DNA of 64,000 nucleotides from Natronohydrobacter sp. (GTDB taxonomy: Bacteria; Pseudomonadota; Alphaproteobacteria; Rhodobacterales; Rhodobacteraceae). The notes beneath the pieces are model-generated. The model was not told the origin of the DNA, did no database searches, and saw only the letters and a program-made list of their open reading frames with translations. The position numbers and the translations under genes are program-made. Positions 32,856-51,181 of the stretch are shown here, one piece after another. Position 1 is the stretch's first letter. Each line of letters begins with the position of its first letter. Where the stretch lies: assembly GCA_020832555.1 (NCBI GenBank), contig JAFIEM010000004.1:18845-82844 (forward strand). Reading direction: 5' to 3'.

Positions 32856-35291
32856 ATGAGTATGCTGATTGCGACACGAAAACTGCGGGTCGGCGAGATA
32901 GGATTGTTCCTGCTCTGGACGGCTTTGGTCGTTCCCCTCGCCATTCTGGCCAGTATTCCGACATCGACCGCAGTGCAGGGGGCGTTGGGGCTGTTCGCTG
33001 TTCTGGTGGTGGCGCTGCTCAAGCCCTTTACCATGAAGAACATCATGGCGCGCTTTGCGCTCCTCTCTGTCGCAAGTGCGATCGTGATGCGGTACTGGTT
33101 CTGGCGGGCGACCGAGACACTGCCACCGCTCGACAACCCGATCTCCTTTTCCGTTGCGCTGGCACTTTTCATCGTTGAAACCTACGCGATCTGTGTCTTC
33201 TTCATCAGTTCTTTCATAACAGCGGATCCGATCAACCGGACCCTGCCGCCCAAGGTTTCCGCGGCCGCGCTTCCGACCGTCGATATTCTGGTGCCGAGCT
33301 ATAACGAACCGACCGAGATGCTTGCGGTGACTTTGTCTGCCGCGAAGAACATGCATTATCCTGCCCATAAGCGCACTGTGGTCCTGTGCGATGACGGTGG
33401 AACCGACCAGCGCTGCAATCACGAAGACCCGGCGATCTCGGAGAAGGCGCGCAAACGTCGTGCAGAGTTGCAGAATCTGTGCGCGGAACTCGGGATCGTC
33501 TATTCGACCCGTCCGAAGAATGAACATGCCAAGGCCGGGAATATGTCTGCCGCGCTGGAGCGGCTGAATGGCGATCTGGTAGTGGTCTTTGACGCAGACC
33601 ATGTGCCCAGTCGTGACTTTCTGGCGCGGACGGTCGGGTATTTCGTCGAAGACCCGAAGCTGTTTCTTGTCCAGACGCCGCATTTCTTTCTCAATCCCGA
33701 TCCGGTCGAACGCAATGTCGGGTTTCGCGCGGATTGCCCGCCCGAAAACGAGATGTTCTATCATCTGGGTCATCGCGGGCTTGACCGCTGGGGCGGGGCG
33801 TTCTTTTGCGGCTCTGCAGCCTTGCTGCGGCGCGCGGCTCTGGACGATGTGGGCGGTTTCGCGGGCGAGACCATTACCGAGGATGCCGAAACGGCACTGG
33901 AGATTCACAGCCGGGGCTGGAAGAGCCTTTATGTCGATCACGCGATGATCGCGGGCCTGCAGCCTGAAACCTTCGTGACCTTTATCGAGCAGCGTGGACG
34001 TTGGGCAGCAGGCATGATGCAGCTTCTGCGTCTGAAAAACCCGCTGCGCCGCAAGGGCATGAGCCTGACACAGCGGCTGTGTTACCTCAATTCCATGACC
34101 TTCTGGCTTTTTCCGTTGGTGCGCATGGTCTTCATCCTCGCACCATTGGCCTATCTGTTCTTCGGCATGCAGATCTTCGTGGCGACCATCGAGGAAGTGC
34201 TGGTTTATATGGGCGCCTATATGGCGGTCAGTTTCATGGTGCAGAACGCCCTTTATGCGCGGGTGCGATGGCCACTTATGTCCGAGATCTACGAGACAGC
34301 GCAGGCACCCTATCTGTCTGGCGTGGTCATCAAGACCTTGCTCAAACCGCGCGGTGCGAAATTCAATGTGACGGCCAAGGACGAGGTTCTGGAAGAAGAT
34401 TACATCTCGCCGCTGTTCAAGCCGCTTCTGGCACTCTGGGTGATTTGTGCGCTGGGTGTAGTGGCGGCAGGAATTCGCTGGGTCATGTTTCCGGGCGATC
34501 ATACGATTCTGATGATCGTCGGCGGCTGGGCCGTGTTCAATTTCATCATTCTGTCAGCAGCTTTGCGGGCGATTGCCGAACGGCAGCAACGACGGGGTGT
34601 GCCGCGGGTTGATATGAAAGTCCCGGCGGTGGCGGCTATTGGACGTGATGGCAGGTTCAGCTTCACGGCGGCAACCATCCTCAATTCGTCGACCAGCGGG
34701 GCAAAGCTCAAACTGATTGGCGGCCCTGAAACTGATCCCGCCGAGCTGGCCTCGATCGCGCCGGGCTACGTGCTCTATTTTACTCCGGAATTCCCGAAAT
34801 CACCGCATCTGGAAAACGCAGTGCGCGTACAGGTCAAGAATGTCGAGCGCACCAATTCAGGTGTCGTCGTCGGTGTACGCTACGACCCGGACCAACCCAT
34901 GCAGGCGCGTGAGACGATTGCGCATCTGATCTTTGGGGACAGCGCGAATTGGGAAATGGTCCGCGCAGGCAAGAACAAGCCCATGCCGATGATCCGGGGC
35001 ATGCTCTATGTTGTCGGTCTTGCCTGTGCCTCTGTGTATCACACCTTGCGCGCGCTGGCCGCAGAACCCGCCCGCCGACGGGCCGCAGAGGAACGCGCCC
35101 GCATGAGCGAGATCCGCGAACTGGAGCCTGCGCATATGCTGGCTTTCGGCGAGGCATTCGATCCCGATATCGCCAATCCCGATTTTTCCTTTGATCAGTT
35201 CGGGACCGGTGTGCCGGGGCTGGCAGGGGGGCGCATGGCCGCCAATCGTCAGACCCAGATCCTGGCGCGTGGATTGGAGGTCAAGCCATGA
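32856..35291 (+). CDS. bcsA: Cellulose synthase catalytic subunit (UDP-forming) with PilZ domain
   Basis: VLCDDGG, VVFDADHVPSRD, TITEDAETALEI, QRGRWAAGMMQ, PilZ RGVPR...NSSTSGAKL. Confidence 0.97.
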   Translation: MSMLIATRKLRVGEIGLFLLWTALVVPLAILASIPTSTAVQGALGLFAVLVVALLKPFTMKNIMARFALLSVASAIVMRYWFWRATETLPPLDNPISFSVALALFIVETYAICVFFISSFITADPINRTLPPKVSAAALPTVDILVPSYNEPTEMLAVTLSAAKNMHYPAHKRTVVLCDDGGTDQRCNHEDPAISEKARKRRAELQNLCAELGIVYSTRPKNEHAKAGNMSAALERLNGDLVVVFDADHVPSRDFLARTVGYFVEDPKLFLVQTPHFFLNPDPVERNVGFRADCPPENEMFYHLGHRGLDRWGGAFFCGSAALLRRAALDDVGGFAGETITEDAETALEIHSRGWKSLYVDHAMIAGLQPETFVTFIEQRGRWAAGMMQLLRLKNPLRRKGMSLTQRLCYLNSMTFWLFPLVRMVFILAPLAYLFFGMQIFVATIEEVLVYMGAYMAVSFMVQNALYARVRWPLMSEIYETAQAPYLSGVVIKTLLKPRGAKFNVTAKDEVLEEDYISPLFKPLLALWVICALGVVAAGIRWVMFPGDHTILMIVGGWAVFNFIILSAALRAIAERQQRRGVPRVDMKVPAVAAIGRDGRFSFTAATILNSSTSGAKLKLIGGPETDPAELASIAPGYVLYFTPEFPKSPHLENAVRVQVKNVERTNSGVVVGVRYDPDQPMQARETIAHLIFGDSANWEMVRAGKNKPMPMIRGMLYVVGLACASVYHTLRALAAEPARRRAAEERARMSEIRELEPAHMLAFGEAFDPDIANPDFSFDQFGTGVPGLAGGRMAANRQTQILARGLEVKP

Positions 35292-37582
35292 GCCGCGCAA
35301 CTTGGATGTTGCAGACAGGTGTTGTGCCCGCATTTGCGCATCTGCGCCGTGCGGGTATCACGCTGATTGGCTGTCTGCTTGTTGTTGCGATTCAGACCGC
35401 GCATGCTGCGGCGCAGGGTGTCTCCGACGGCCTGATCCCATTGCCGGAGAGTGCGGTTCAGGAATTGCCGAGCAGCGTTTCGCCCACGGAGATGCTGGAG
35501 CGCTTCGATCCCGCACGGCGTGTTGTAACGTCAGAGGACGTCGTCAATCCTGAATTGCAGTACTGGATTTCGCCCTTGCGCTTGCTGGATCTCGGATATC
35601 CGATGCGTGACAGCGTAACGCGAATTTCGGGCGAGCGCGAATGGGTCGCCTTCGATGTCTATGCCAGTGCCGGAGCCGACCAGCAAATTCTGCGCCTGTC
35701 GACCGTTTCGGGGATCAACAACCTGCCCGAGCGGTCATACCTGCGCGTATCCCTGAATGGCACGGATCTTGGGCGGCGCAATCTGGAGCATGTCGAGTCT
35801 TTCGGCATGATAGATTTCGCGTTGCCGCCCGATGTCCTCGTGCCGGGACGAAACCGCGTGCAGATCGAGTTCCGGCAACATCACAGGATCTATTGTGGAC
35901 CGGAAGCATCGTTTGATCTGTGGACTGATATCGACCTTTCGAAAAGTGGTCTGATAGTCCGCCGTGACCTTGATGCGGTCGGCGTCGAGACCTTTCTGAT
36001 GGCCTTGGCAGCTCAGGCAACCGGTGTGCGACCGGTCGAGATCCGCGGGCTGGATTCGCTGGGCAGCGATTCAGAAAGCTGGCGGAGGTTCCTTGTCGGT
36101 CGTCTCAATCAGGTGCTTTCTGGGGCACCGGTCGTGTTCCGTTTCGATGATTACTGGACCGCCGAGAGTGTGGGCCGTGCCCATGCGCGGATCACCGTTC
36201 TGCCCGCAGCGCAAAGTCGCATGCGATTTGTCATCGGTGGAGATGGCGCGATCGTGATGGTGCTGGACGTGGCGCAGGGGACGCGCCCCGAGGATTTACT
36301 GGCGGGAATACCGCAATTCGAACGGCGCTATGAGGATGTTCGCGCGCCATTGGTAATGCCGGAGCGAGACATTGCTTTCGCGGAGCTCGGGGCGAAGACC
36401 GAAGATTTTTCGCAGCATTATGCCATGCGCAACCATGTATTCAGGCTGCCGAATGACTGGCTGGTGCTGACAGCCGCCAAGGCCCGGATCCAGCTTGACT
36501 ATGCCTTCGCGGCCAATCTGCCCGAAGGCGCCATGCTGCTCTTGAGTGTGAATGGCACTGCGATCCGGCTGTTGCCGCTCTGGCAGGGTGGTGGAGCGCC
36601 GATCGATGCCTTTCCGATCGATTTCGAAGCACGGCTGATGCATCCGGGGACAAATGTCCTGACCTTCCAGATGTTCGTGCCGGGCAATCCCGCCGATCTG
36701 CCCTGTCCTTCGGGAGAAAGCCCGGTCCTGCAGATTTCTGAAACTTCGACGCTGCGCGTGCCCTACAGCCCCGCCATGGTCATCCCGGATATGGATCTGG
36801 CTTTTGCCACGCTCGGGGCAGACAGCCTGCGCAAGAACGAGTTGAGCGCGCGGGCTTTTTCCGACATGGATATGCTGACACTCTCGGCGGCCCTGAGCCG
36901 GTCGCGTGAGGCGCAGTATCCTTCGGTGCTGCACTTGATCGCGATTGATGATCTGGCCTCGATCCCGACCGGGCATCATCGCGCAGACCGCCGCCTGCTG
37001 GAAGATACAGTTCTGAGCGGACCCGAAGAAGGACCGCGTTCCGACGACAATACGGGCACGATGTCACAGGACCCTTTTCTGGCGCGACGTCCGGCATCTC
37101 AGCCTTTCGCGGCGTTTCTGAACGCGGGTTGGGAAAATGTCTTGGGCAGGCTGCAATGGCTGCGCGACAGGGTTTTTCCCAATAGCGGCGACCAGCTGAA
37201 TGCCTGGCTGACCGAGCAGCGAGGGCATGCCGTCCTGTTCCAGCTTGACCCTGATCGCCCGAGTGAAATCTGGATGCTGCGCAGTCCCGACAGCGATATC
37301 CACTCGATTGCACTGGCGATCGCAAGCGCGCGTGCCTTTGGCGGTGGACCAAAAGGACAGGTTTCGGTTCTGACGCATGAGGGTCACTGGATCAACTGGT
37401 TTGCGCCGGATCGCCGACCGGTTCTGCTGGAACCCTGGTCGCGGCAGAATTTCCGTGCGGCAATGGGCAATTTCGTCTCTGCCCGACCGATTTTCTATAC
37501 CATCCTGATGCTGGGGATTGCCCTGCTATCGGCGCTGGTCGCGTTGCGACTGGTAATCTCGACACGGGAGCACAAGACATGA
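35288..37582 (+). CDS. bcsB: Cellulose biosynthesis cyclic di-GMP-binding regulatory protein BcsB
   Basis: 764 aa with signal peptide and C-terminal TM (FYTILMLGIALLSALVALRLVIS), directly after bcsA with 4-bp overlap. Confidence 0.93.
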   Translation: MSRATWMLQTGVVPAFAHLRRAGITLIGCLLVVAIQTAHAAAQGVSDGLIPLPESAVQELPSSVSPTEMLERFDPARRVVTSEDVVNPELQYWISPLRLLDLGYPMRDSVTRISGEREWVAFDVYASAGADQQILRLSTVSGINNLPERSYLRVSLNGTDLGRRNLEHVESFGMIDFALPPDVLVPGRNRVQIEFRQHHRIYCGPEASFDLWTDIDLSKSGLIVRRDLDAVGVETFLMALAAQATGVRPVEIRGLDSLGSDSESWRRFLVGRLNQVLSGAPVVFRFDDYWTAESVGRAHARITVLPAAQSRMRFVIGGDGAIVMVLDVAQGTRPEDLLAGIPQFERRYEDVRAPLVMPERDIAFAELGAKTEDFSQHYAMRNHVFRLPNDWLVLTAAKARIQLDYAFAANLPEGAMLLLSVNGTAIRLLPLWQGGGAPIDAFPIDFEARLMHPGTNVLTFQMFVPGNPADLPCPSGESPVLQISETSTLRVPYSPAMVIPDMDLAFATLGADSLRKNELSARAFSDMDMLTLSAALSRSREAQYPSVLHLIAIDDLASIPTGHHRADRRLLEDTVLSGPEEGPRSDDNTGTMSQDPFLARRPASQPFAAFLNAGWENVLGRLQWLRDRVFPNSGDQLNAWLTEQRGHAVLFQLDPDRPSEIWMLRSPDSDIHSIALAIASARAFGGGPKGQVSVLTHEGHWINWFAPDRRPVLLEPWSRQNFRAAMGNFVSARPIFYTILMLGIALLSALVALRLVISTREHKT

Positions 37583-40380: not shown

Positions 40381-40824
40381 ATGACCTTTTCCTTCACCAA
40401 CACCCTGACCGGTTCCGCTCTTGCACTCGTTGTCGCTCTTGTGTCCCTGCCCGCAGATGCCGGGTCGAACCGTGTCGTCGTCGATCAATGGGGTCGTGAC
40501 AATGGGGCCGCTGTCGCCCAGACCGGCCATCGCCAGCGTGTCTCGATCACACAGAGCGGTCGCGGCAACCTGTCGCTGAACACGCAGGACGGTGCCCGCA
40601 ACCGCGTCGTCGTGGGTCAGTCGGGCTGCAATAATGTAGCCGATACGGCGCAGGGCGGACGGCGCAATATCGTCGGTGTCTCTCAGATCGGTTGCCGCAA
40701 TGACGCGACCGTGACCCAGACCGGCCATCGCAACGCTGTGGGCGTCATCCAGACCGGCAATGGCAACACGGCCAATACGACCCAGCACGGCAATGGCAAT
40801 GTGGTTCTGATCATTCAGGACTGA
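40381..40824 (+). CDS. Curlin-repeat amyloid subunit (CsgA/CsgB-like)
   Basis: Signal peptide, then five to six 22-residue repeats of form N-x-V-x-V-x-Q-x-G-x-x-N-x-A-x-x-x-Q-x-G. Confidence 0.88.
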   Translation: MTFSFTNTLTGSALALVVALVSLPADAGSNRVVVDQWGRDNGAAVAQTGHRQRVSITQSGRGNLSLNTQDGARNRVVVGQSGCNNVADTAQGGRRNIVGVSQIGCRNDATVTQTGHRNAVGVIQTGNGNTANTTQHGNGNVVLIIQD

Positions 40825-40836
40825 CCTTGCGTCCAG

Positions 40837-40858
40837 GCCGGGAGCAACCACTCCCGGC
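40837..40858 (+). terminator. Intercistronic hairpin between curlin and CsgH-like gene
   Basis: GCCGGGAG-CAACCA-CTCCCGGC perfect 8-bp stem followed by AAAAT (no U-tract). Confidence 0.55.
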
Positions 40859-40895
40859 AAAATCCCGAAAAGATACCCGAGAAAGGAATCTTCTC

Positions 40896-41276
40896 ATGTC
40901 TGCGATGCCCTATACGATTGCCGCACTTGTCATTACAGGTGCTGCCTGCACCGCCAGCCTTGCCACCTCACAAGGCGCACCCGCAAGTGAGGCACTTGTC
41001 TGCGAGTTACGCCTGACCGAGTCCAACCGTCAGGTGACGATCGCCGCGGAAGCCGAGGCGCGACAGACCCTGCGCGGCACTTATCAACTGAATATCGACC
41101 AGCGCAGCGCGGCAGGACGTTCCACCATTCGTCAGGGGGGAGAGTTTGACCTAAAGGCCGGGGAACGCACTACGCTTGGTCAGGCCAGCTTTTCTGGCCG
41201 GGCGCGTGATTTCGATGCCGAACTGACGGTAAAGGCCAATGGCCAGACCAAGACCTGCCGCTCGGCGGCTCTTTAG
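40896..41276 (+). CDS. csgH: CsgH-like curli assembly inhibitor/chaperone
   Basis: Small secreted protein with two mature Cys (VCELRL...KTCRSAAL) lying between two curlin genes; CsgC/CsgH-like size and pattern. Confidence 0.65.
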   Translation: MSAMPYTIAALVITGAACTASLATSQGAPASEALVCELRLTESNRQVTIAAEAEARQTLRGTYQLNIDQRSAAGRSTIRQGGEFDLKAGERTTLGQASFSGRARDFDAELTVKANGQTKTCRSAAL

Positions 41277-41324
41277 CAGGGCCGTCTTCACATCTACTCC
41301 AAGCTTTCAGGAAGGAATACTGCC

Positions 41325-41750
41325 ATGTTCCGATTTTCTCGCACTATCGCTGCCAAACCCGCACGTTTCCCGGTTCTCGCGGCCTTCGCGATGGCGCTCT
41401 CGCTGCCAGCCTCCGCGCTTGATGCGAAATCACTCTCGCTCGCGATCAATGCCCGCAACGCCGACGAAGCGCGCGTCCTGAATACCGCGATCACGCTTTA
41501 TTCCATCCACCGCGACATTCGTGCCGGGGCGGATGTGCGGCAAGTGGGGCGCAACCACGCTGCCCGTGTCCATCAATCGGGCGGTGGCAATCAGGGGATC
41601 ATTCGCCAGCGCGGGCAGGGGCATAGCGCCAATCTGTCCCAGCACGGGGGCAATAACGGGCAGGTGATCTTGCAATATGGTAATGGCGCTCATGCCGATG
41701 TGCACCAGACCGGTGGGCAGGCTGGGATCCTGATCCAGTTCGCGCCCTGA
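41325..41750 (+). CDS. Curlin-repeat protein (minor/nucleator-like)
   Basis: ADVRQVGRNHAARVHQSGGGNQGIIRQRGQGHSANLSQHGGNNGQVILQYGNGAHADVHQTG: curlin repeats after a signal peptide and non-repeat N-terminal domain. Confidence 0.85.
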   Translation: MFRFSRTIAAKPARFPVLAAFAMALSLPASALDAKSLSLAINARNADEARVLNTAITLYSIHRDIRAGADVRQVGRNHAARVHQSGGGNQGIIRQRGQGHSANLSQHGGNNGQVILQYGNGAHADVHQTGGQAGILIQFAP

Positions 41751-44935: not shown

Positions 44936-46024
44936 TCATGTTGCCTGCAACAGCTTCTCTTTCAACGGCCTTTCTTGCTCAATCGCTGCAAGCAAGTCTG
45001 CACAAATCGCCCAGGTCGGTCTGTCCGCAGACAGAATGATCGCGTCAAAATCCGGGCGTTGTTCACGGGCATTGCGGCGGAGGGCTGCGTTAAATCCGCT
45101 GGAGCCAGGCTTGTGGCCAATCGAATTGCGCGCGGCCAGTCGGTCCGCGATCACATGGTCCGGCGCAGACAGGTGAAACACCTGTCGGAAAACATCGCGA
45201 TATGGTGACACGGTCGCCCCGAACCCGCCGATGACAAAGACAGCAGCCCTCTGTCTGCGCGCAGCGGTGAAGCATGCGCGCGCCCGCGTCTCTGGCCAAA
45301 ACCAACGGATATCCGCTTCACCCTGAGGGAAGGCGCGCAGCAGGTCATATCTGACATCGCTGAACCGCCGCCCAAGGCAGAAACTGGCAATCTCGGTATC
45401 AGCGTCAATGATCGCATAGCCCATAGCCTGCAGAAAATGCCCGAGGGTGGATTTGCCAGTGCCGTTATTGCCACAGACAAGGTAGAGCCCCGCAGGCAGC
45501 GTCGTGCGAGGCTTTCGCAGCATCTGAAGACCCGCGCGGGCCATATGTTTGCGCAGTCTGTCAGCCTGCATCCCGAGAAATGCCTGTGCCGCGTCATGCT
45601 GTCCGCACAGGCGCAGGCAGGCCAGTCGGCGCAGGATTGCATAGGGCCCCTGAACCCTGTGCTGGTCAAGCAGGATTTCCCAAGCCTGTTCTGCGAAAGG
45701 GTAGTCTTTGGCCAGCATGGCGATTTCCGCCTGTATGCGTCGTAGCGCCAGGTCTTCCGGCCAACGTTCAAGCGCATCCTGCAACTGGCGCAGCGCGTCG
45801 GAATAGGCTCGACAGCGCATCTGCATCTGTGCCTGCGTAAGTGCCGTGGCCGGATCGGGCGCAATCGCCATCATGCGGCCCAGATACACTATTGCTGCGC
45901 GATAATCGCCGCGCTTGATACGCCCCCTTAGGGCCTTGTCCAGCCCCGGTTGATCCATCAGCGCCGCCTGGGTGCGGTGCCATGTCAGATCACGCTCCGG
46001 CAAGGGTCTGGCCTGATCCGGCAT
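44936..46024 (-). CDS. TPR-containing P-loop (kinase-like) protein
   Basis: N-terminal TPR-like helices; Walker A LVCGNNGTGKSTLGHFL then YAIIDADTEI, resembling small-molecule kinase folds. Confidence 0.7.
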   Translation of the reverse strand: MPDQARPLPERDLTWHRTQAALMDQPGLDKALRGRIKRGDYRAAIVYLGRMMAIAPDPATALTQAQMQMRCRAYSDALRQLQDALERWPEDLALRRIQAEIAMLAKDYPFAEQAWEILLDQHRVQGPYAILRRLACLRLCGQHDAAQAFLGMQADRLRKHMARAGLQMLRKPRTTLPAGLYLVCGNNGTGKSTLGHFLQAMGYAIIDADTEIASFCLGRRFSDVRYDLLRAFPQGEADIRWFWPETRARACFTAARRQRAAVFVIGGFGATVSPYRDVFRQVFHLSAPDHVIADRLAARNSIGHKPGSSGFNAALRRNAREQRPDFDAIILSADRPTWAICADLLAAIEQERPLKEKLLQAT

Positions 46025-46167: not shown

Positions 46168-46857
46168 ATGTCAGATTTCGAGCATCCTGAAGAAGGCTAT
46201 GTTTTCATCGTGACCTATGGGCGTTCGGGCTCGACGCTGCTGCAGAATCTGCTGAACGCGATTCCCGGTTATCAGATTCGCGGCGAGAACAACAATGCGC
46301 TGTACGGTCTGTTCAAGAGTTGGCGGGACATCGTGACCAGCCCCGATATCGCGCGGATGCAGCGCGAGGGGCTTGTGTCGGACGCCACACATCCGTGGTT
46401 CGGGGCCGAGGAAATTGACGCCAACGCCTATCGTGCCGCTCTATGCGGGGTGTTTTCGCGCCTGATTCTGCGCCCTGCTGTCGGCATTCGGGTCAGCGGG
46501 TTCAAGGAAATCCGCACGATCGCCGATCCTGACCTGTTCGCGGCCTATCTTGAATTCATCCAGAATGGCTTTCCCAAAGCGCGGATAGTGTTCAACACAC
46601 GCAATCCTGACGCTGTGTGCCGGTCATCCTGGTGGCGCAAGCACGACCCGCATCAGGTGAAGGCGATGATCCGCTCTGCCGAATCGGTCTTTCAAACCCA
46701 TGTTGAAACGCATCCAGATCGCGCGGTGTTGCTGCACCATGACAACTATGTGGCCGATCACGCCGCGCTAGAGCCGCTCTTCACCTTGCTGAGCGCACGA
46801 CCCCGGACAGAGGCCTTGCACCGGGTGATGCAGACAAGGCTGACCCACGCGACATGA
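46168..46857 (+). CDS. Sulfotransferase family protein
   Basis: N-terminal PAPS-loop YVFIVTYGRSGSTLLQNLLN; VFNTRNPDAVCRSSWW in the 3'-phosphate-binding region. Confidence 0.85.
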   Translation: MSDFEHPEEGYVFIVTYGRSGSTLLQNLLNAIPGYQIRGENNNALYGLFKSWRDIVTSPDIARMQREGLVSDATHPWFGAEEIDANAYRAALCGVFSRLILRPAVGIRVSGFKEIRTIADPDLFAAYLEFIQNGFPKARIVFNTRNPDAVCRSSWWRKHDPHQVKAMIRSAESVFQTHVETHPDRAVLLHHDNYVADHAALEPLFTLLSARPRTEALHRVMQTRLTHAT

Positions 46858-46888
46858 CGCAATCTTCCTGCAGAAAGGTACAGCAAAT

Positions 46889-49800
46889 ATGCCGATGACC
46901 CCAAGCCCGGAGTGTCCACCTGAATTGCGCGCAGAGGCAGGCGCGCTGTCAGTCCCGGCGCCTTCGACACTCTTGCTGGAGATTGATCTGCGCGCGCAAT
47001 CCATCGTCAATCTGGATTTCCGAAATCACGCGCAGGATATGATCCCGCTGCACCTGTCCTTGCGTCGCGAAACTGGCCGGATTGTCGCGAATCGCTGGTG
47101 TGACAAAGGGTGGCGGCGCGAGGTGAGCTTCCATGCACCGCTGCGACACGGGACTCACATCCTGCAACTTGTGTTTCGCAGGGGGCTTGGGCGCGGCATC
47201 TGTGTTGATCTGTCGCTCGACGGTTCTGCGCTGGGGTCTCTCGATGCACTCCCGCGACGTGATCCAGAAGGCCGTCTTGGTCTGCGACGTGGCTTTCCTG
47301 ACCTTGGGACGATCGGTGCGATCACCTGGCCTGAGGGTGTGCGCGCTGTGCGGGTGCTACACGCCATCGGGGCAGGGGTCTTGCATCTGACGCCGCGGCT
47401 GGAAGTCGTGATGCAGGATGCGGGCATAGAGGCAATGCTCGATTCCGCCGGTGACATGCCCGCGCGTCCGTTCATTCCATTACAGTCCGAATCTGGTAGC
47501 CATAGCGCCGCGCTTGTGCCGGGTTGGGTCTGGCAGGGGCGCGAGGGGTCGGATGTGATGCTTCTTGCGCGTGACCGGACAGGCCAGGTGATCGCGCGCC
47601 ACAAACTGACCAAGGCGCAGATTCTGGGGCTGCTGGAACGGCCAGAAGTGCTCTGGCAAATCCGCCATGACACAGTGGCGCGATTGCAGATGCTGGAGCA
47701 TGTGCATTTCGCGGATCTGTGGTCCAGCCTTCCGCCTGCGGCGCGTATGTTGCTGGCGCGTGAGGCTCAACGCCACCCCGCAGCCGGTTTTTCGCCCCCG
47801 CAAGAAATTGCCCCGCCTGATCTCACCCAACATATGCGAACCCCCGCCGCCGCGGCTTGCGATGCGTTCCATCGCAGCCGGGTTTCGCTGCGCTCTCCTG
47901 ATCCTGTAGAGAAGCTTCGGTCTCTGGTTCATGCTGATCGCCTTGATCCCGAGCAGATACGCCAGCTTGGGTTGCTGCTGACGGAATGGTTTTGCCTGTA
48001 TGGTGATCCAAATGATCTGGCGAAAGCCATGCGTGATCTGGGCGTTCAGGACTGGGCGGATATTCAGGAACCCTGGGGACGGGTCGCGGCTTTGCCATTG
48101 CTCTGGGCCGCCGGTGACTGGAAGACCTGTCAGCACATCCTGAAAACAAGTTGCGCCCAACGACCCGGTTGGGTCGTTACGCCGGCGCTGGGCTGGCTTG
48201 CATCTGCTCTGGCCAGAGACATGCCAGACCTCTCGGGTAACCGGCCCGACTTGGCGCAGCGCGTTGCCATGTCGCTCGCGCTCCTCGAACTGATCGCTGC
48301 GCTAGCCCCGGCCTATATGGCGCAAATGAGCTGCCAGCGCCTGATTTCCGGCGTGCTGGAATTGCTCGCGGCACGTCACACAATGCCGGATTGGTGCCAG
48401 TCGCGTTTCGTCGAACTTGCCCTGCAAGCCTATGGGCTGAACATGAATTTCTGGCGGCGGAACCCCGAAAGATTGCCTGCGTCCCTGTTGCCCTGGCGCA
48501 CTGCCTTTGCCGGGCTGCATGCGGCGGCAATGGCCGGGGACTGGCAAGCACTGGGTCGCAGAGCCCGGCCGTTTCTGACCAGACCCATTGCCGGAAGCGA
48601 GACCTTGCGCCGACTCGCGCTTTCGTCAGAGGCGCTTGTCTGCGATGAGACGGGTCTGCCCATGATGCACGTCTTGAGCAGTGTCGCTGCACCGGCGCAG
48701 ACCGAGGAAGCTGCGCTGCGCTGGCTGGCATTTCCGCGAAGCGACGCGACCAAGGCGGCGCTTCCGCTCGACAACGAAGTTCCGGTACATCGCGCGGCCT
48801 GTGCAGCACTTGTCGCGGCAACGCCTGATGTGGGTCGTCCGGCCATGTCGCATGCGCAGCGCCATCTGGGCCACCATGTGCAGGCCGTGCTCAAAGTGCT
48901 GCGTACAGGAAGCCCCCTCGCGCGCGCGCAGTTGCTGGAGGCTGTGACCGCCACGCGCAGCCTGATCCGACCGGAAGCCGGGTTTCTGGGCGTCGCGGGC
49001 TTGCTGGCTCTGGCCGAGGCTCTGACCCGCAATGGCTATCCCATAGCCGCGCGCACCTGTATCAGCTTCGTGACCGAAGCCGCGCAGCGCCTCGCCCCGG
49101 AGCGAATTCTGTCATATCCTGCTGTCCAGCTCGCTCTTGCCCGTTTCGACGCCGCGAGCCCCGACCCGGCTTTGCGGGCTGCGCTGCGAGCGTGCCTGCC
49201 ACATGACACGCAGATGCAACCCGGCCCTGCCGAGGACCCGCAAGCATCGGCGCTGCGCATGGCGTCCAACCCTTTCGCGGATACAGTCGTGGCGTTGATT
49301 TCCTGCCATGCCAATCTGGCGACGCGCGTGCCGGAGATACAGGCGGCATGGGGGGGGCGGCTCGCGGAATGGGGGATTCCGCTGATCGTGGTGACTGGGC
49401 GCGCAGCAGGGCAGATAGCAGGCGTCGGGCCGCGCTTCGATGGGTGGCATCTGCAACTTGATGCTCCCGATGATTACGAAGGTCTGCCGCAGAAAATTCT
49501 TGCACTGTCCGAATGGGCGCTGGCGCAGACCGGGTTTTCGCGCATCTACAAGATTGATGATGATTGCTTTCTGAATGTGGAGGCGTTTTTTTCCGATCCC
49601 AGCTATCTGACATTTCCCTATTACGGGCGGCCTTTGCGCCGTGCCCCCGGCGACATGGACCGCGCCTGGCATATCGGCCGCGCACAAACACCGCGTGGGC
49701 GGCATGAACTGGACAAATCACCAGAACCTTCGCGCTATGCTGATGGCGGGTCGGGATATGTCCTTAACCGTCAGGCGCTTGCCGCGCTGTGTGCCGCGCG

Positions 49801-51181
49801 GGAAACACCGCAGGGGCGGGCACTGGAACAGGTGTCCTTCATGGAGGACAAGCTTGTGGGCGATCTGCTGGCTCAATCGGGGATCGAGGTAGCGGGGCAA
49901 AATTACGATATCGCGATCTTTCGCAAATCCGCGCCCGGACTGCCCCCATTGCCACAGTATCATTCCGGTTTCCTGCCCTTCGCAGGCGCTCAGGTGAAGC
50001 TGGCGCATCTCGATTCCGGGGGGGCACCGCAAGACGTGAGCGATGCTTTGGCTTCGCCCTGGCCCAAGCCGATGAGGATCTGGCCGTGTCACCGTCCGGC
50101 AGGATTGGGATGGGCGCAGCATGGGCTGTCGCTGGTCAGTCCGCCGGAGCGGCTTGAGCAGGCGAAATCCGCCGAAGTTGCGGTGGTCTCGGTCATGCGC
50201 AACGAGCGCTTTCTCCTGGATCATTTCCTCGCGCATTACCGCCTTCTGGGCGTCCGTGCCTTTCTGATTGTGGATAATGGTTCCGATGACGGGACATTGG
50301 AGCATCTTGTCGCGCAACCTGATGTCTCGGTCTTCACGACGGATACACCCTATCGTCAGGCGGCCTATGGTGTGATGTGGCAGGAAGCGCTGATGGCGCA
50401 TTTCCGTCTGGGCCGCTGGTCGCTGGTCGCCGATGCGGATGAACTGGCCTTCTGGACGATGCCGGATATCGCAGGTCATGTGCAGGCCGACTTGCCGCTG
50501 TTGCTGCGCGGCGACGATTTCCAGACCTGTGAGGCCGTGCGCCTGCTGATGTTCGACCTTTATCCGAAGGGTCCGCTATCGGCCGCGCAGTTCCAGCAGT
50601 CGCCCTTCATTGAGGCCAGCCATGTCGAGCGCGAACCGTTCAGCATGGAATGGCAGGGGCGTGGCCCGTGGTCGAACTGCAAGACCCTGACCAGTGCCTT
50701 GCGCCATCGTCTTTTGGCAGAAGCTGGCGCGCCTGCGCGCGCCAATCTGTTCGTGGCCCAGAAATACGCCCTGTTGCGCTATCACCCTTTCATGCAGGTT
50801 TCGACTGGGCTGCACTACATTTCCGGGGCCAAAGTCGCGGGGCGGGATCTGGCTTTTGGACATTTCAAGTATCATGCGGAATTCCATGCCAAGGCCCGGC
50901 GCGAAGCTGCGCGGGGGCAGCATTTCAACAATGCCGAGGAATACCGGAACTATCTGGCCTTGCAGGCCGAGGGGCGCGATGTGCTCTACCGACCCGGAGT
51001 GTCAGTGCCCTTGGCCGCCTGTCCACAATTGCGCCGGATATGCAGCCTGCCCGAAGCGCCGGATTTCGCAACGCTGCGCACGGGTATCCCGCAGGTGATC
51101 GTCCGGCGTATTCCGCGCCGCTCTGGCTTTCCGGTGTCGGGTATCCGACCTTCGCCGGGCGTCGAAATCAGGGTATCGTGA
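46889..51181 (+). CDS. Multidomain glycosyltransferase: galectin-like + helical + GT31-like + GT92/GT2_4-like
   Basis: 1430 aa; galectin-like residues ~25-150 (LHLSLRRETGRIVANRWCDKGWRREVSFHAPLRHG); GT31 motifs (RVPEIQAAWGG, YKIDDDCFLN, YADGGSGYVLNRQAL, MEDKLVGDLL); C-terminal VVSVMRNERFLLDHFLAHYRLLGV, DNGSDDGT, VADADEL. Confidence 0.8.
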   Translation: MPMTPSPECPPELRAEAGALSVPAPSTLLLEIDLRAQSIVNLDFRNHAQDMIPLHLSLRRETGRIVANRWCDKGWRREVSFHAPLRHGTHILQLVFRRGLGRGICVDLSLDGSALGSLDALPRRDPEGRLGLRRGFPDLGTIGAITWPEGVRAVRVLHAIGAGVLHLTPRLEVVMQDAGIEAMLDSAGDMPARPFIPLQSESGSHSAALVPGWVWQGREGSDVMLLARDRTGQVIARHKLTKAQILGLLERPEVLWQIRHDTVARLQMLEHVHFADLWSSLPPAARMLLAREAQRHPAAGFSPPQEIAPPDLTQHMRTPAAAACDAFHRSRVSLRSPDPVEKLRSLVHADRLDPEQIRQLGLLLTEWFCLYGDPNDLAKAMRDLGVQDWADIQEPWGRVAALPLLWAAGDWKTCQHILKTSCAQRPGWVVTPALGWLASALARDMPDLSGNRPDLAQRVAMSLALLELIAALAPAYMAQMSCQRLISGVLELLAARHTMPDWCQSRFVELALQAYGLNMNFWRRNPERLPASLLPWRTAFAGLHAAAMAGDWQALGRRARPFLTRPIAGSETLRRLALSSEALVCDETGLPMMHVLSSVAAPAQTEEAALRWLAFPRSDATKAALPLDNEVPVHRAACAALVAATPDVGRPAMSHAQRHLGHHVQAVLKVLRTGSPLARAQLLEAVTATRSLIRPEAGFLGVAGLLALAEALTRNGYPIAARTCISFVTEAAQRLAPERILSYPAVQLALARFDAASPDPALRAALRACLPHDTQMQPGPAEDPQASALRMASNPFADTVVALISCHANLATRVPEIQAAWGGRLAEWGIPLIVVTGRAAGQIAGVGPRFDGWHLQLDAPDDYEGLPQKILALSEWALAQTGFSRIYKIDDDCFLNVEAFFSDPSYLTFPYYGRPLRRAPGDMDRAWHIGRAQTPRGRHELDKSPEPSRYADGGSGYVLNRQALAALCAARETPQGRALEQVSFMEDKLVGDLLAQSGIEVAGQNYDIAIFRKSAPGLPPLPQYHSGFLPFAGAQVKLAHLDSGGAPQDVSDALASPWPKPMRIWPCHRPAGLGWAQHGLSLVSPPERLEQAKSAEVAVVSVMRNERFLLDHFLAHYRLLGVRAFLIVDNGSDDGTLEHLVAQPDVSVFTTDTPYRQAAYGVMWQEALMAHFRLGRWSLVADADELAFWTMPDIAGHVQADLPLLLRGDDFQTCEAVRLLMFDLYPKGPLSAAQFQQSPFIEASHVEREPFSMEWQGRGPWSNCKTLTSALRHRLLAEAGAPARANLFVAQKYALLRYHPFMQVSTGLHYISGAKVAGRDLAFGHFKYHAEFHAKARREAARGQHFNNAEEYRNYLALQAEGRDVLYRPGVSVPLAACPQLRRICSLPEAPDFATLRTGIPQVIVRRIPRRSGFPVSGIRPSPGVEIRVS

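Follow-up and report, generated by a model that had tools for sequence, protein, structure and literature searches.

A galectin domain joined to GT31 and GT2_4 glycosyltransferase domains in single proteins of Rhodobacterales, with relatives in ABC-exporter capsule loci

The closest described counterparts of the gene studied here are plant GALT1–GALT6, in which a galectin domain (PF00337) lies N-terminal to a GT31 glycosyltransferase (GT) domain (PF01762) in one chain; the parallel, judged by domain order and already drawn in an earlier note made from this DNA alone, is apt, since the N-to-C order is identical (PMC4431829; PMC4687291). In a survey with 52 bacterial genomes in its sample, such fusions turned up in land plants only (PMC5225481); galectins are attributed to fungi and animals in a 2026 review (PMC13084444), and the role of the galectin domain in the plant enzymes has been named an open question (PMC7789275; PMC4687291). 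Here we describe an intact, forward-strand open reading frame (ORF) of 1,430 residues at positions 46889–51181 of a 64,000 nt stretch from Natronohydrobacter sp., a bacterium of soda-lake type (the window; contig JAFIEM010000004.1), whose product is organized as galectin domain, small beta domain, helical solenoid, GT31 domain and Glyco_tranf_2_4 (GT2_4) domain, and whose galectin-GT31 fusion is fixed across one bacterial order. To our knowledge, galectins have so far been described from eukaryotes and some viruses; the literature searched, mostly open-licence and with subscription journals mostly outside it, yielded no description of bacterial galectins or of bacterial galectin-GT31 fusions. 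We therefore consider the bacterial fusion new, the plant fusions being already known, and the homology of the lectin firm.

The ORF is real and conserved, as the earlier note had it: it opens with an ATG preceded by a Shine-Dalgarno-like AGAAAGG 10 bases 5′ of it (46872–46878, forward strand) and has no internal stop, and two Natronohydrobacter genomes align with it from residue 1 (78% identity). In a Pfam scan of the full-length window protein alone, both Gal-bind_lectin (E = 0.015, 15.2 bits against a cut-off of 22.1) and Galactosyl_T (E = 5.5e-4, 20.2 bits against 23) fell under their curated cut-offs, so that relatives were needed to decide both claims; over all scans the lectin score of the window protein ran from 15.2 to 19.7 bits. 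Scanning 85,462 species genomes with GT31 motifs as the seed brought up 132 relatives, and 80 of these were retrieved; the named ones are all Rhodobacterales, including Natronohydrobacter (78% identical), Roseibaca, Pararhodobacter, Shimia, Ruegeria, Salipiger, Sulfitobacter and Paracoccus, and the remainder come from alphaproteobacterial or proteobacterial bins. We aligned 72 non-duplicate full-length proteins with the window protein, and virtually all full-length members contain the lectin in spite of the GT31 seeding. One copy, from Falsigemmobacter intermedius (L097, 9956–13904), is broken across several frames and is perhaps a pseudogene or the product of sequencing errors.

Within the family, five of 297 further genomes gave matches to residues 1–804. 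A PF00337 search of 290 genomes of the class returned no match, not even in the genome of origin, and is hence uninformative; because of this blindness we used the family's own profile, which does detect that genome. With it, some nine or ten real cases appeared in 298 genomes of the family, two further matches looking like chance on inspection, and the genome of origin was the sole match among 241 genomes of the class and 299 of the phylum, in searches that score a limited number of candidates and could thus miss rare others. A search of viral contigs using the lectin sequence alone found no relative.

The galectin domain spans residues ~25–158 (46961–47362; here and below, all features of the protein are on the forward strand) and is indicated by Pfam, profile comparison, predicted fold and structure search. 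Searched as a single sequence against the PDB, the window protein gave no match; in the relatives, Gal-bind_lectin was recognized in the lectin region of 58 of 66 members (E ≤ 1, best 2.7e-9), and for a profile of the 66 members compared with all PDB sequences the matches listed were galectins, the best being a Toxascaris leonina galectin (E = 1.7e-18), together with a viral galectin-domain fiber protein. In that alignment, H, S, R, N, W and E pair column for column with the T. leonina protein, whose first carbohydrate-recognition domain (CRD) reads HISVR and so has Ser in the Asn position, as in the bacterial domain. The AlphaFold2 model of the domain is a galectin beta-sandwich (predicted local distance difference test score, pLDDT, 91.2; predicted template modelling score, pTM, 0.83), and its best 50 structural matches in the PDB were all galectins (best E = 3.7e-6). 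By sequence and by predicted structure, then, the N-terminal domain is genuinely homologous to galectins. The notion of a chance likeness in a short motif, for which the sub-threshold score of the window protein might speak, retains virtually no credit, being in practice already refuted by the profile match, by the unanimous fold matches and by the recognition of Gal-bind_lectin in the relatives.

The signature itself was correctly read in the earlier note, which listed H55, R59, V66, N68, W75 and E78 as kept, with S57 in the place of the galectin Asn. H55-x-S57-x-R59 (47051–47065), the counterpart of galectin H-x-N-P-R, lies on one predicted strand and is kept in 70, 69 and 70 of the 72 proteins, and the remainder of the sugar-binding signature, N68 ... 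W75-x-x-E78 (47090–47122), is kept in 72, 72 and 70. The copies with altered H/S/R, from Roseibaca and Tateyamaria (L028, L044 and L093), read HIEFR, SIEFR and QISLN, with N and W kept. The modelled domain has H, S and R at alternating positions of a single strand, with N on the following strand and W and E on a third; galectin strands S4–S6 carry their sugar-contact residues in a matching arrangement, so that the predicted placement on three successive strands follows the galectin sheet. Ranking the 136 domain columns by conservation placed W75, N68, E78, R59, H55 and S57 as the top six (S57 level with N41 and F44), which is the sugar-contact set and suggests selection on binding, beyond fold alone. 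This pattern would not be expected if the domain had lost sugar binding and survived as a leftover with a structural or regulatory role, serving in folding or docking. We regard that possibility as improbable: it could appeal to the replacement of N by S in the core motif and to the galectin-like domain of Akkermansia Am2136, for which carbohydrate binding was not detected (PMC9673926), but the first CRD of the T. leonina galectin has the same HxSxR form.

The middle catalytic domain, residues 795–1060 (49271–50068; motifs DDYEGLP, KIDDDC, DKSPEPS, GGSGY and MEDK), is assigned to GT31 from hidden Markov model, profile and structure searches, which bears out the earlier assignment. Galactosyl_T matched all 42 members searched (best 2.5e-14), and the domain excised from the window protein passes the cut-off (25.7 bits against 23); the DxD-type D890–D892 (DDD) and E986 and D987 (ED...G) are invariant among the 73 aligned proteins. 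The nearest solved enzyme to the GT31 profile is human B3GALT6 (2e-9), with B3GALT5 at 4.9e-7, and the structure search ranked B3GalT6 first, followed by C1GalT1 and, lower down, the galactofuranosyltransferase AfGfsA. Judging from these matches, the domain most likely transfers galactose, either galactopyranose (Galp) or galactofuranose (Galf), the latter being considered because a UDP-galactopyranose mutase gene (GLF) often accompanies the gene. A galactofuranosyltransferase, with the galectin binding a neighbouring beta-galactopyranoside or sulfated galactose, would be a variant of the function that we propose below; we think it rather unlikely, because the fold match to AfGfsA and the presence of GLF at 20 of 83 related loci and in the genome of origin are countered by a best match, in sequence and in fold, to the galactopyranosyltransferase B3GALT6, and by most loci showing no GLF. 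Separately, stand-alone GT31-like ORFs of ~235–265 residues occur in tandem on viral (IMG/VR) contigs (L016, 401–1770; L017, 2722–4900).

For the C-terminal domain, residues ~1085–1395 (50141–51073; motifs RNE, DNGSDDG and ADADE), the earlier note had offered GT92 or Glyco_tranf_2_4. The second name stands, with a Pfam match of E = 3.7e-21 in the window protein and matches in 13 of 13 members; the first was rejected, Glyco_transf_92 appearing weakly in three of the 13 (best E = 0.024). Two adjacent genes on contig C164 of the same genome are stand-alone relatives of this GT2_4 domain, 35–36% identical to it. Neither of the two outcomes that the earlier note had named as refuting, an N-terminal fold other than that of a galectin or the lack of a GT31 match, came about. 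Its galectin, GT31 and second GT domains were sound, but it had missed what lies between the lectin and GT31, as well as the capsule-locus context and the relatives with three GTs. A model of residues 25–1085 (pLDDT 91.3, pTM 0.88) places a further small beta domain and then a long helical solenoid between the galectin domain and GT31. The beta domain, residues ~160–245 (47366–47623), is drawn from predicted strands and the alignment and has a conserved PGxxW motif; the all-helical solenoid, residues ~246–790 (47624–49258; ~540 residues, pLDDT mostly >90), matched no Pfam family. No transmembrane-like segment was seen in the protein. An NCBIfam CcpN match was dismissed as noise, and PADLOC gave no match to a defence system.

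Comparison of the neighbours at 83 related loci revealed that the relatives' gene sits in ABC-exporter capsule loci, with an ABC-2 permease gene at 27, a KpsE-like gene at 26 and an ABC ATPase gene at 24. By a rough estimate, about one exporter co-location per 83 loci would be expected by chance, because the genome of origin has two strong KpsE-like copies in 3.9 Mb. At 19 loci a GT2 region of ~650 residues (Pfam Glycos_transf_2, 1.5e-48) is fused ahead of the galectin, resulting in proteins of ~2,000 residues with three GTs; at ~25 others GT2 is a separate same-strand gene directly upstream, and the fused and separate forms never occur together. A GT4 gene is found at 45 loci, 26 of them with it at most 300 bases away, and sulfotransferase families at 25, 22, 19, 14 and 13. 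RTX/M10C genes, present at 36 loci and in an exporter cluster of the genome of origin, raise the alternative that the substrate is a secreted protein, such as a large RTX/M10-type protein encoded nearby, which the enzyme would glycosylate in the cytosol ahead of type I secretion while the galectin reads the attached glycan. The closest architecture is indeed that of plant protein O-galactosyltransferases (PMC4687291), a similar role having been proposed for the galectin of plant GALTs with arabinogalactan proteins, and C1GalT1, an enzyme for O-glycans of proteins, is among the fold matches of GT31. Nevertheless, the RTX genes seldom adjoin (3 of the 43 come within 300 bases, and the median gap is 4 kb) and belong to common families, while the exporter and sulfotransferase genes indicate a polysaccharide; we consider protein glycosylation quite unlikely.

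Our preferred reading, to which we give a probability of about 0.62, is that the protein is a soluble cytosolic multi-glycosyltransferase that makes a polysaccharide of capsule or biofilm, containing galactose and probably sulfated, while the galectin holds on to the chain as it grows. The lack of a membrane segment and the ABC exporter suggest synthesis in the cytosol before export, presumably on a lipid-linked, galactose-containing chain to which the two or three glycosyltransferase sites would add sugars in turn: GT31 would add galactose (Galp or Galf), and GT2_4 and GT2 further sugars. Sulfotransferases would decorate the chain, and a Kps-type ABC transporter would export the sulfated product as capsule or biofilm matrix. 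The galectin, tethered to the catalytic part via the solenoid, would bind a beta-galactoside of the growing chain, either acceptor or fresh product, so that the lectin domain may hold the acceptor glycan, as the earlier note had supposed; such binding could raise local acceptor concentration, processivity or specificity, and carbohydrate-binding modules act likewise in other multidomain enzymes. Several observations weigh against this reading. In the genome of origin the gene does not adjoin an exporter, the exporter cluster being on another contig, and the KpsE-like name is based on synteny, sequence reading and 'sugar transporter' annotations, Pfam giving no match. TM-scores of the lectin model to galectins are moderate (0.45–0.57, query-normalised). 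Additionally, the Asn of HxNPR is replaced by Ser in almost all members and the signature is partly lost in two Roseibaca and one Tateyamaria sequences, so that specificity may differ from that for ordinary lactose. A bolder proposal, which we advance tentatively and at somewhat less than even odds, is that bacteria have true galectins within polysaccharide synthases, where the lectin grips a nascent sulfated galactan and sets its elongation, the plant galectin-GT31 pairing being an independent repeat or the outcome of shared descent.

In the window, a sulfotransferase gene (Sulfotransfer_3; 46168–46857, forward strand) ends 31 bases upstream of the gene and probably forms one operon with it; its family is present at 25 of the 83 loci, adjoining in 16. 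Further upstream is a reverse-strand gene for TPR repeats and a P-loop kinase-like domain (44936–46024), a conserved neighbour in 12 of the 83 loci whose membership of the pathway is uncertain. Cellulose-synthase-like genes and curli-type repeat proteins, recognized from translations alone, lie 5–14 kb upstream (32856–37582 and 40381–41750). Elsewhere in the genome, the exporter, GT4, GT2 and RTX genes cluster on contig C82, and GLF is on C115.

Full-length or near-full-length copies were also found on five plasmids of the Roseobacter group. Exporter and sulfotransferase genes were present on all four plasmids inspected, and three of these had repA and rfbABCD near the copy, one with glf and GDP-fucose genes as well; the annotation of the protein there reads just 'glycosyltransferase' or 'glycosyltransferase family 2 protein'. 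Where PMC13386836 and PMC10090131 cite Michael et al. (2016), the rhamnose-operon plasmids of Roseobacter are called biofilm plasmids; the three plasmid copies near repA, rfbABCD and export genes resemble that type, whereas the window copy adjoins accA, curli-like and cellulose genes. The finding hints that Rhodobacterales of the sea and of soda lakes make a surface polymer that contains galactose and is sulfated, and that may matter for biofilm formation. Since the bacterial proteins are soluble and their loci can be deleted and lie in part on plasmids, they would make the role of a galectin domain testable.

The Akkermansia muciniphila Am2136 GH20 hexosaminidase is likewise a bacterial enzyme with a domain of galectin-like fold, but it is a hydrolase (PMC9673926). 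In bacterial capsule loci of the ABC-exporter (group 2) type, multidomain synthases also combine several GT domains in one soluble chain within a Kps-like locus; we know of none with a galectin domain, and the literature searched yielded no paper on one. With animal galectins, of which that of T. leonina (4hl0, 5glt) is nearest in sequence and Caenorhabditis elegans LEC-6 (3vv1) is a further example, the bacterial domain has in common the fold, the H-x-S-x-R ... N-x6-W-x2-E signature and the order of beta-strands, although those are stand-alone lectins with one or two CRDs and the bacterial one is attached to an enzyme. B3GALT6, B3GALT5 and the fungal galactofuranosyltransferase GfsA belong to the same catalytic family and have its motifs, but are eukaryotic Golgi enzymes. 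Finally, plant GALTs have one N-terminal transmembrane anchor, face the Golgi lumen and contain a single GT (GALT5 has 672 residues), whereas the bacterial protein has no transmembrane segment, contains a 540-residue solenoid and one more GT, is partnered by a GT2 and is set in capsule loci.

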